Both the position numbers and the translations under genes were made by a program. The notes under the pieces were generated by a model that did not search any database, had not been told where the DNA came from, and saw nothing but the letters and a program-made list of their open reading frames with translations. Positions 433 through 28,225 of a stretch of DNA of 64,000 nucleotides are shown here, piece after piece (position 1 is the first letter of the stretch; every line of letters begins with the position of its first letter). The DNA comes from Candidatus Poribacteria bacterium. Lineage in GTDB: Bacteria; Poribacteria; WGA-4E; WGA-3G. Location of the stretch: contig JAPOZO010000095.1 of the NCBI GenBank assembly GCA_026706025.1, positions 1-64,000 of the forward strand, read 5' to 3'.

Positions 433-677
433 CCCGTAGGTTGGGTTGAACGCATACTCCCAAAACTCTGAAAAGGAACACAACACTCAGACCACACCAG
501 AGACCGCACGCCAAACAGAAAAACGAGTGAAACCCAACGCCTTGGCGGTTTCCGGGCACTTGAGGGGCTGAAGTTGGGTTTCACTGCGTGTTTGGATGTA
601 TACGATGGCTGGTTGGATTTCAGGCTATTAGCACACCGACATATACCTTTTCAACACCGTTCTACCCAACCTACGGG
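433..677. mobile_element. RAYT-associated non-autonomous repeat element (copy A)
   Basis: A 245-bp element bounded by 20-bp terminal inverted repeats: CCCGTAGGTTGGGTTGAACG at 433-452 and its complement with one mismatch at 658-677. Inside is a perfect 12-bp inverted repeat (GTGAAACCCAAC at 527-538, GTTGGGTTTCAC at 573-584). The same ends bound the elements at 3887-4760 and 5421-6009 that flank a REP-associated transposase gene, so this copy is inferred to be mobilised in trans by that enzyme. No obvious target-site duplication is seen. Confidence 0.65.
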
Positions 678-3886: not shown

Positions 3887-4760
3887 CCCGTAGGTGTTTT
3901 TGCTTGGGTGTTTCCCTTAGGTTGAACGGCGGGGACAAGTCAGAGGGTGATACCACATACACACATCAAAACCAATATAACCCTACATATACTCCGAAAC
4001 CCAGCGAAACCCAACTTCACACTGGAACAGGGTCAGAAACTTCACAGCAAAAGCGGTGGGTTTCAATCGATCTCTGGTAGCACTTGCCTCTCTGGAGAAA
4101 GTTATGTGCTTCCAATCCCGTAGGTTGGGTTGAACGGCGGTGAGAAGTCAAATGTTGATACCACATATACACATCAAAACTAATATAACCCAAGATATAC
4201 TCCGAAACCCAACTTCACGCTGGAACAGGGTCAGAAACTTCGCAGCAAAAGCGGTGGGTTTCAATCGATCTCTGGTAGCACTTGCCTCTCTGGAGAAAGT
4301 TATGTGCTTCCAATCCCGTAGGTTGGGTTGAACGGCGGTGAGAAGTCAAATGTTGATACCACATATACACATCAAAACTAATATAACCCAAGATATACTC
4401 CGAAACCCAACTTCACGCTGGAACAGGGTCAGAAACTTCGCAGCAAAAGCGGTGGGTTTCAATCGATCTCTGGTAGCACTTGCCTCTCTGGAGAAAGTTA
4501 TGTGCTTCCAATCCCGTAGGTTGGGTTGAACGGCGGTGAGAAGTCAGAGGGTGATACCACATATACACATCAAAACTAATATAACCCAAGATATACTCCG
4601 AAACCAAGCGAAACCCAACTTTACACTGGAACAGGGTCAGAAACTTCACAGCAAAAGCGGTGGGTTTCACTACATCTCTGGTAGCACTTGCCCCTCTGGA
4701 GAAAGTTATGTGCTTCTGTAATTGAGCCGGTCTCGGAGGCATCCGTTCTACCCAACCTAC
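3887..4760. mobile_element. RAYT-associated element with 198-bp tandem units (copy B)
   Basis: The element opens with a degenerate CCCGTAGG end near 3887 and closes with CGTTCTACCCAACCTAC (4744-4760). Internally a unit beginning TCCCGTAGGTTGGGTTGAAC repeats at 4116, 4314 and 4512 (period 198 bp), with a diverged unit before 4116. The units at 4116-4313 and 4314-4511 appear identical, pointing to recent tandem amplification. Each contains an inner inverted pair (GAAACCCAAC ... GTGGGTTTC). Open frames inside the units are identical copies without a ribosome-binding site and are not regarded as genes. The element directly abuts the 3' side of the RAYT gene. Confidence 0.8.
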
Positions 4761-4779
4761 AAGAAAAAAATAAAGAGGA

Positions 4780-5322
4780 CTACTCACTACCGATTTCCGG
4801 AGAAAATAAAACCTCATCTCCCGCGCCCCACATCTCATCATACAATCCAGCCCGAACATAACGATGAAAACTGGAGTATTCCCAATCCTTTGGGGCAGTT
4901 ACCAAACCGTGTTTGACCGGATTGTAATGGATGTACTCAACATGATTGGCAAAGTCTCGATCATCTCGAATCGTGCGCTCCCAAAACCTGCGCTGCCAAA
5001 ACGAACGTTCCCCTTTACCTTGACGTGACACCGAAATGATTCCATCGTCTTTGTCTTGGCAGTGACGGCTGAAATAACTTTTAATTACCCGCCATCGCAT
5101 GGAAAAGTTGTGATCATCTCCAGGTAAGGTCCAGATGCAATGGAGGTGATCAGGCAGCAGAACAATAGCATCAATCTCCATAGGATGTCGCTGTATCGTA
5201 TCCCGAAATGCCTGGCGTAGCAATTCGACGTTGTTTGGATTGCAGAGGAAAGGTCTACGGTTGTAGGTAACAACGGTGAAAAAATATGTTCCACCTTCAA
5301 TCTTTGTTCGACGATATCTCAT
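4780..5322 (-). CDS. REP-associated tyrosine transposase (RAYT, Y1 family)
   Basis: This 180-residue protein belongs to the TnpA_REP/Y1 transposase family. The N-terminal 'YRRTKIEGGTYFFTVVTYNRRPFL' is the family's opening strand. 'LLPDHLHCIWTLP' carries the His-hydrophobic-His (HUH) metal-binding motif. 'HVEYIHYNPVKHGLV' holds the catalytic tyrosine region. 'FWQRRFWERTIRDDRDF' is the usual linker. Such single-copy enzymes cut single-stranded REP/BIME hairpins next to a GTAG tetranucleotide. Here both sides of the gene carry inverted and tandem copies of a GTAG-containing repeat (3887-4760 and 5421-6009), which strongly suggests its own substrates. All key motifs are present, so it may be active. 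Confidence 0.92.
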   Translation of the reverse strand: MRYRRTKIEGGTYFFTVVTYNRRPFLCNPNNVELLRQAFRDTIQRHPMEIDAIVLLPDHLHCIWTLPGDDHNFSMRWRVIKSYFSRHCQDKDDGIISVSRQGKGERSFWQRRFWERTIRDDRDFANHVEYIHYNPVKHGLVTAPKDWEYSSFHRYVRAGLYDEMWGAGDEVLFSPEIGSE

Positions 5323-5420
5323 CTACGCCTCTCTTTTTAAGGTATGACGTTGGGTGCCTCTACATTTTCGGAATAGTATCCACACAACCCATTTCACCAT
5401 CAAAAAATTTCAACGCCATT

Positions 5421-6009
5421 CCCGTAGGTTGGGTTGAACCCATACCACAAAAAACCCTCAAAAACAACAGAAGATTAAATCCTGCCATACCTGCTATATC
5501 AAACAGAAACCCAGTGAAACCCAACGATTTCAATCCCGTAGGTTGGGTTGAACGGCGTTCAGAAGGCAGATAGTGATAGACCAGACACACAGGAAAATAA
5601 TATACCCCTATATACTCCTGAATGGAGTGAAACCCAACGATTTCAATCCCGTAGGTTGGGTTGAACGGCGTTCAGAAGGCAGATAGTGATAGACCAGACA
5701 CACAGGAAAATAATATACCCCTATATACTCCTGAATGGAGTGAAACCCAACGATTTCAATCCCGTAGGTTGGGTTGAACGGCGTTCAGAAGGCAGATAGT
5801 GATAGACCAGACACACAGGAAAATAATATACCCCAAGATATACTCCGAAACCCAGTGAAACCCAACTTTACACTGTCAGGGTCCCGAAAACTTCACAGCA
5901 AAAGCGTTGGGTTTCACTCGGGCTCTGGTAGCAGTTGCGTCTCTGGAGAAAGTTATGTTCTCCTGTAATTTAGCCGGTTTCGCAGGCATCCGTTCTACCC
6001 AACCTACGG
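5421..6009. mobile_element. RAYT-associated element with 113-bp tandem units (copy C)
   Basis: It begins with CCCGTAGGTTGGGTTGAAC at 5421 and ends with CGTTCTACCCAACCTACGGG at 5990-6009, the inverted-end pair seen in copy A. Units starting TCCCGTAGGTTGGGTTGAAC recur at 5534, 5647 and 5760 (period 113 bp). The final unit switches to the longer type related to copy B, ending in 'CTCTGGAGAAAGTTATGT'. Copies B and C are in the same orientation on either side of the RAYT gene. No coding potential is credited here. Confidence 0.8.
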
Positions 6010-6837: not shown

Positions 6838-6977
6838 ATAGTTATCAGAGGAAATAGTTGTCAGTTTTCAGTACGGTTTTTTTTTCAAAAAAACCTTTCA
6901 GTTGTCAGTAAAGAGACCTTTTGCATTGTCCCAACCCTCTTTTAACTGACAACTGACAACTGACAACTGATAACTAA
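6838..6977. repeat. Heptanucleotide inverted-repeat element
   Basis: The block is built from 7-nt units of the CAGTTGT/ACTGACA type. The left part (ATAGTTATCAG...GTTGTCAG) is complementary to the right part, where ACTGACA units repeat and end in CTGATAACTA. A central GGTTTTTTTT..AAAAAAACC hairpin lies between them. It could fold into one long stem. Similar blocks lie at 9150-9249, 14402-14709, 16466-16612 and 28053-28225. No coding sequence is seen in it. Confidence 0.75.
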
Positions 6978-11626: not shown

Positions 11627-11649
11627 GTAGGTTCGGTTTCTAACCGAAC
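11627..11649 (+). repeat. REP-like hairpin: GTAG plus palindrome
   Basis: GTAG (11627-11630), stem GTTCGGTT (11631-11638), loop TCT and AACCGAAC (11642-11649). The preceding 'CCGTCGCGACCCCCAGG' is shared with position 246-262, where the same repeat is interrupted by the long palindrome at 281-336. Confidence 0.75.
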
Positions 11650-14401: not shown

Positions 14402-14709
14402 CGGCACAGTTGTCAGTTGTCAGTTGTCAGTAGTTTTCAGTTTTCAGTTCGGTTTTTTTTCAAAAAAACCTTTCAGTTTTCAGAAAGAATGGCAGTCAGC
14501 CATCAGCAATAGGCAGTCAGTTTTAAGAGTTATCAATCTGCCTCGCAGCGAGAAAAAGAGGCTTTCGGATCATCAAAAACCTCTTATAACTGACTACTGA
14601 CTACTGACTACTGATAACTATTTCCTCTGACAACTGATAACTGACAACTATTTCCCCTGAGAACTACTCCCTCTGAAAACTGAGAACTGAGAACCGAAAA
14701 CTATTTCCT
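14402..14709. repeat. Large heptanucleotide repeat block
   Basis: About 300 bp of CAGTTGT-type units (left, three perfect tandem copies at 14407-14427) and the inverted ACTGACT/ACTGACA/CTGAGAACT units (right, 14585-14700). A GGTTTTTTTT..AAAAAAACC hairpin lies at 14451-14471. It is the largest member of the family in the window, and apparently two nested or tandem copies. No gene is seen. Confidence 0.75.
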
Positions 14710-28052: not shown

Positions 28053-28225
28053 TTAGTTTTCAGTTTTCAGTTGTCAGTTCGGTTTTTATAGTTTTCAGTT
28101 TTCAGTAGTTGTCAGTTATCGGTTATCGGTTGTCAGTAAAAGAGGGGTACGGTTTAATCAGATACCTCTTTAACTGACAACTGACAACTGACAACTGATA
28201 ACGATTTCCTCTGACAACGAATAAC
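28053..28225. repeat. Heptanucleotide inverted-repeat element
   Basis: CAGTTTTCAGTTGTCAGTT units (28060-28080 and 28098-28140) face ACTGACAACTGACAACTGAC units (28174-28202). It occupies nearly the whole gap between rng and the rplU promoter. Confidence 0.75.

Follow-up and report, generated by a model that had tools for sequence, protein, structure and literature searches.

A probable REPtron of Candidatus Poribacteria with giant-loop REPs

The locus described here, part of a 64,000-nucleotide stretch of DNA (the window), is with a probability of roughly 0.76 a REPtron of Candidatus Poribacteria with giant-loop REPs, in which a RAYT/TnpA_REP gene lies between tandem arrays of its own REPs. 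The enzyme, the tag, the dimer and the clusters are already known; the unusual feature is a hairpin loop of ~82 nt. From the association of gene and repeats, the RAYT–repeat phylogeny and the copy numbers, we infer that the RAYT moves these elements.

Results

The sequence-only reading had placed a RAYT at 4780-5322 with its own GTAG repeats on both sides, and our analyses agree. The open reading frame scores 207.9 bits against NF047646 (REP-associated tyrosine transposase; cut-off 80), and a Pfam Y1_Tnp domain was detected in its product. The HUH motif is H59-L60-H61, and the candidate catalytic tyrosine is Y130 or Y133, within YIHYNP; all of these residues are invariant across 10 orthologues. 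The closest solved structure is that of the E. coli TnpA_REP (4er8, E=2.8e-40). An AlphaFold model, computed with 10 sequences, had low quality (pLDDT 48) and was set aside. Judged by its sequence, the product is a predicted Y1-family HUH endonuclease with a catalytic tyrosine.

The window is part of a genome of 6.27 Mb from sponge-associated Poribacteria, and the named relatives of its RAYT are Candidatus Poribacteria MAGs. This type-1 RAYT occurs as one copy per genome in 11 genomes. In G000, G001 and G007 it lies in one shared gap, bordered by two conserved genes, and is absent from that gap in most other genomes of the genus with a readable gap, including the nearest relative, G015. No sign of mobility of the gene itself, as in an IS200/IS605 element, was seen, though the gene may be mobile. 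We saw no clean empty site or transposition event: G015, in which the neighbouring protein is 96% identical, is without the RAYT array, and its intergenic DNA is not alignable at that place. The right end of a further element of the window, copy A, is also found in G015.

The features of the locus are collected in Table 1. The gene is flanked by genome-dispersed GTAG REPs, and the complete elements on its two sides, as well as copy A, are inverted pairs of a REP of ~102 nt. Both tandem units noticed in the sequence-only reading, of 198 and 113 bp, were recovered by TRF, the left array at 3920-4716 (period 198, x3.9) and the right array at 5513-5866 (period 113, x3.1). The left array consists of four units, with a degenerate copy first and a complete element last; the right array has a different REP at its start and likewise closes with a complete element. 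Because the complete elements and copy A are inverted pairs, the 198-bp unit can be read as a REPIN whose second REP is cut off, and the 113-bp unit as a single REP followed by 12 nt. The units are thus truncated REPINs or REPs amplified head-to-tail, with GTAG at each start.

Table 1. Coordinates of the RAYT gene and the repeat elements in the window
Feature	Positions	Strand	Remarks
Copy A, complete HH REP dimer (REPIN)	436-674		REP 436-538 (+), loop 83 nt; spacer 34; inverted REP 573-674 (-), loop 82 nt
Left array, unit 1, degenerate	3890-4119	+	Stem disrupted, GTAG kept
Left array, unit 2, 198 bp	4120-4317	+	REPIN truncated in second REP
Left array, unit 3, 198 bp	4318-4515	+	Identical to unit 2
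Left array, last unit, complete REPIN	4516-4760		Ends ...CCCAACCTAC, 20 bp from RAYT stop
RAYT / TnpA_REP gene	4780-5322	minus	180 aa; profile matches, invariant motifs, 4er8 homology
Right array, unit 1, REP	5424-5525	+	Loop sequence differs; 12-nt tail GATTTCAATCCC as in other units
Right array, 113-bp unit	5538-5650	+	Long-loop REP 5538-5638 (loop 81 nt) + 12 nt
Right array, second 113-bp unit	5651-5763	+	Identical to 5538-5650
Right array end, complete REPIN	5764-6007		REP 5764-5866 (loop 82-83 nt), inverted REP 5906-6007

At 185-236 and 280-337 there are two strong inverted repeats whose loops are short (arms of 24 nt, 88% complementary, and of 26 nt, 96% complementary); neither is a REP. 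The heptamer AACTGAC / TCAGTTG forms short arrays at 6944-6975, 14407-14681 and 28172-28202.

The long-loop REP is composed of GTAG, an 8-bp stem GTTGGGTT/AACCCAAC, a tandem G.A mismatch (GA...GA next to the stem) and a 2-bp upper stem. The upper stem is A-T or G-C followed by C-G, and closes a loop of ~74 nt (82 nt from the lower stem). Mismatch and two-pair upper stem are common to long and short REPs, and GA/GA is present in 162 of 182 long ones. An alignment of 35 elements from the genome of the window gave the consensus GTAG-GTTGGGTT-GAACGG-(~75)-CGAGTGA-AACCCAAC for the first REP and, after a spacer of ~34, GTTGGGTT-TCACTCG-(~75)-CCGTTC-AACCCAAC-CTAC for the second. The dispersed element is therefore two inverted REPs with a variable spacer of ~34 bp, an HH dimer or REPIN. 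Most copies, about 217-247 bp long, are of this form; we found 34 complete dimers, and of 106 REP ends 63 belong to HH dimers and 32 are single. A tag and 8-bp stem at the hairpin foot are shared by 195 distinct poribacterial REPs. Since the repeat is 101-105 nt long with a loop of 81.8 +/- 1.8 nt, rather than a short hairpin of 20-65 nt with a loop of a few nucleotides, it is a variant and not a standard REP. A derivation of the long loop from a decayed short REPIN was rejected, as the 3' arm ends in GTGAAACCCAAC without CTAC and the inner arms are gone.

The arms of the hairpin covary across the long loop. At loop positions 3/-3, ~76 nt apart, 123 nonredundant REPs have A-T in 69 cases, G-C in 36 and mismatched A-C or G-T in 5 (Fisher p=2.5e-23, where the counts are sequences and few independent switches are traceable). 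The outer stem appears in the minimum free energy (MFE) fold of 115 of 123 reconstructed REPs, with the stem sequences fixed for the test, and the MFE z-scores of four window REPs (-1.33 to 0.03) are near those of shuffled sequences. We conclude from the covariation, and from the pairing kept within the REPs of dimers (see Discussion), that the hairpin across the long loop is in all likelihood real; an 8-bp stem closing ~82 nt is only marginally stable.

In the window, GTAGGTTGGGTT has 12 matches with at most 1 mismatch, against 0.18 expected, and the whole genome holds 95 exact copies. Exact long-loop REPs number 82 in this genome versus 2 short ones; across 38 genomes of the genus, exact matches comprise 1410 long, 212 short and 28 intermediate REPs. 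Matches of the long class occur in 8 of 11 genera of the order; outside the genus, the mid class includes some matches that represent dimers of short REPs. A REP variant of ~65 nt (GTAGGTTGGGTTGAACGGAACTGAAAAGAGGGACCAAACCTCGAAAAGGTGTGAGTGAAACCCAAC) is found at G000:C99:48729-48794 and at single places in about ten genomes of the genus; present in many species, once in each genome, it is perhaps a retained old orthologous copy.

Genomes of the genus with the type-1 RAYT hold a median of 74 long REPs versus 20 in those without it (p=0.017), and when the RAYT of the long-loop clade alone is considered the medians are 78 versus 20 (p=0.006). The sequence-only reading would have counted equal abundance in genomes lacking this RAYT against the association. 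The repeats are not equally common there, but the separation is incomplete: five genomes of the genus, including the nearly complete G018 (3 contigs), have at least 50 long REPs and no detected type-1 RAYT. Loss of the RAYT after spread, or another RAYT, would explain these.

The genome of the window also contains a second REP family, GTAGGTTCGGTT...AACCGAAC, with a loop of mostly 3-4 nt and 64 matches. Its copies adjoin other RAYTs of the genome, those of contigs 10 and 39; even within a single genome, the type of REP thus goes with the type of RAYT. One copy, GTAGGTTCGGTT-TCT-AACCGAAC, lies in the window at 11627-11649. The RAYT of contig 56 represents another type, bordered by short inverted repeats (for example CCTCCTCTGTAGGA or TCCTACCAAGAG) and not by GTAGGTTGGGTT repeats (L082:8231-8965, L253, L259 and L262); these are possibly a third REP or TIR type.

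We then compared 80 relatives of the RAYT from Poribacteria, Cyanobacteria, Thermodesulfobacteriota, Chloroflexota and others. Nearly all are flanked by the tag and stem GTAG-GTTGGGTT...AACCCAAC, or by compensated variants, among them GTCGGGTT, GTTGGGCT and GTTGGGTC. The loops beside these genes are mostly 9-12 nt long, and loops of 77-85 nt occur only in one poribacterial RAYT clade, in which long REPs lie within 500 bp of all nine distinct RAYTs. Short-loop REPs accompany 67 of 74 other RAYTs, and none was recognised at the remaining 7. RAYT phylogeny does follow the repeat type, a test raised by the sequence-only reading: the nine RAYTs flanked by long loops are monophyletic, requiring one change on the tree (SH-aLRT 85), and are nested in a poribacterial clade (SH-aLRT 99) whose other five members are of the short-loop kind. 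Long- and short-loop users inside this one phylum share 71-83% RAYT identity.

As for loops of 82 nt in Cyanobacteria, all candidates among the matches listed (gap of 62-92 nt) were, by eye, dimers of short REPs or structured loops of ~37 nt. The REPs with ~37-nt loops resemble inserted hairpins (GAGGAACGTTAGCGGAGCTTATCCGTTAGGATA) and come from G091, G096, G101 and G105 (cyanobacterial loci L129, L134, L139 and L143). By these examples, loop insertion may also have happened outside Poribacteria.

Discussion

Of the 80 RAYT genes, 13 have a GTAG array at a distance of at most 650 bp. Where the first copy is visible, homology often stops 0-5 nt 5' of GTAG, and the 3' end of the unit varies. An array edge falls within 5 nt of GTAG in 13 of 28 cases against 4.35 expected (p=6e-5); for periods of at least 60, this is so in 6 of 20 against 2.4 (p=0.02; p=0.08 under the strictest null). 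In a relative, the tandem array L126:2926-3333 has a 135-bp unit of a REP and the first RAYT codons, and the 5' end of the RAYT is present three times. The one-sided array start might suit a RAYT that links the 5' end at GTAG with a 3' end further downstream, but template switching induced by the hairpin would look similar.

To the proposal that replication slippage, or unequal recombination of adjacent REPs, produced the arrays without any role of the RAYT, we give slightly less than even odds. The start of units at GTAG above expectation, with variable 3' ends, speaks against it, although stalling at the hairpin foot would likewise place breakpoints there, and the identity of the 198-bp copies and of the 113-bp copies is compatible with slippage in the recent past. 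Arrays are also rarer at REP loci of the window's genome away from RAYTs (1 of 73 versus 13 of 80, p=0.001, in a comparison between different species), but the excess over REP-holding flanks of the same contigs at distances above 1 kb, where 1 of 22 has an array, is not significant (p=0.29), and arrays also occur where no RAYT was seen in the vicinity (L202, L203).

The loop of the long REP combines a fixed length with a free sequence. Its length is 81.8 +/- 1.8 nt over 182 distinct REPs, 123 of them below 75% identity, while the spacer between REPs varies more (34.2 +/- 5.4). Between genera or genome groups, loop identity is 31% versus 29% for shuffled sequences. Weak preferences in register are nevertheless present, with A, C and T profiles that correlate at 0.44-0.68 at zero shift between genome groups (0.50-0.68 for the A-profile alone, three groups). 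Adenine peaks recur approximately every 9 nt along the loop in the three groups, near 8, 17, 26, 34, 45, 53, 62 and 72, that at 62 missing in one group; this periodicity was found post hoc and may be residual homology.

We favour the view that the fixed loop length is a required spacing tolerated by RAYT recognition, since the enzyme would read only the GTAG, the lower stem and the bulge. More tentative, and in our estimate rather unlikely, is the idea that the ~82-nt loop is a working part set by length and not by sequence, either a single-stranded spacer or a protein-binding track, with adenines possibly every ~9 nt, which a poribacterial REP/RAYT acquired once and which is now required. A loop selected for lack of structure is unsupported, as the loops fold like shuffled sequences on both strands (z about -0.1). 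The same folding result bears on the possibility that the long loop is cargo or an RNA gene with its own conserved structure, the REP stems being merely its ends. The constant length and the register preferences would fit such a gene, but in loops of 81, 82 or 83 nt no internal helix is conserved beyond what a column-shuffled null gives, and the two loops of an element show no relationship, with scores equal to those of shuffled sequences; we therefore consider it improbable.

Improbable too is the reading of the ~235-bp element as an ordinary MITE, with terminal inverted repeats of 18-19 bp, arms that pair across the element and incidental inner repeats: although its ends are inverted repeats (I1-I24), and the inner arms GTGAAACCCAAC/GTTGGGTTTCAC are inverted too so that the whole could fold as one interrupted hairpin, half-elements act as units in the 113-bp array and as single REP ends, the same stem occurs with short loops beside related RAYTs in other phyla, and pairing within REPs is kept where pairing across the element is broken: position 3 differs between the two REPs in 16 of 34 dimers and would mismatch across them, while pairing within both REPs is perfect in 13 of these 16.

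Considered as a REPtron, the locus resembles the known TnpA_REP/RAYT systems (E. coli 4er8; group 2 / subclass 2.2) in its homologous enzyme, its HUH and tyrosine motifs and its GTAG-REP flanks, and the REPs of group 2 share the irregular zone above the lower stem (PMC8266576). It differs from them in the length of the REP and its loop. Described REPs measure 20-50 nt (PMC8266576) or 21-65 nt (PMC6006769), with loops of 2-5 nt, 9-15 nt or up to ~27 bp self-complementary (PMC3733652, PMC6006769). The large-loop family GTAG-15 of Di Nocera et al. 2013, whose hosts include cyanobacteria, has the GTAG tag and a stem of 6-9 bp, and its loops of 9-15 nt are like the 9-12 nt of our cyanobacterial short-loop relatives; a common identity with GTAG-15 is a lead only. 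However, the longest inner loop among those GTAG REPs is ~27 bp and self-complementary (PMC3733652), whereas the poribacterial loops are 74-85 nt and not self-complementary. The TIRtrons/TIRYTs of the same study also place a RAYT-like gene between long inverted repeats, but their TIRs are mostly unrelated to GTAG REPs, unlike the poribacterial elements with GTAG and REP stem.

The inverted REP pair as a dispersed unit is shared with the REPINs of P. fluorescens SBW25 (Bertels and Rainey 2011, PMC3116915), where tandem REPIN clusters including flanking DNA adjoin RAYT genes. The arrays are therefore not the novelty, contrary to the sequence-only reading, which had held such tandem units to be outside the usual REP/BIME form. 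Its suggestion of an unfamiliar REP variety is borne out, but by the ~82-nt hairpin loop. The poribacterial arrays do differ from the SBW25 clusters in their long loops, in units that have GTAG at the start but no fixed point of truncation, and in the unit of L126 that takes in the 5' end of the RAYT gene. We found no description of a length-fixed giant REP loop, and no GTAGGTTGGGTT in a REP context, among the open-licence papers searched.

In the mechanism that we propose, the RAYT would bind the folded single strand through GTAG, the lower stem and the G.A bulge, ignoring the apical loop, and would cleave next to GTAG and spread the REPIN in trans. A single loop expansion in an ancestral poribacterial REP would have been tolerated, and something may later have fixed the loop length but not its sequence. 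The head-to-tail arrays could perhaps form when a GTAG 5' end is joined to a downstream 3' end, which would yield units that start at GTAG and end variably; this joining step might be strand transfer by the RAYT, or the hairpin might induce template switching.

Programs that search for REPs expect very short loops (2-5 nt, or a short stem with a bulge; PMC6006769) and therefore overlook the long-loop REPs, even though these predominate among REPs with this stem in the poribacterial genus. The long- and short-loop REPs of one phylum constitute a natural experiment: with RAYTs 71-83% identical between their users, one enzyme family can be tested on both for the parts of the REP that it reads. 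The arrays suggest a possible route to mapping where the RAYT joins DNA, and the combination of fixed length and free sequence is a directly testable constraint.
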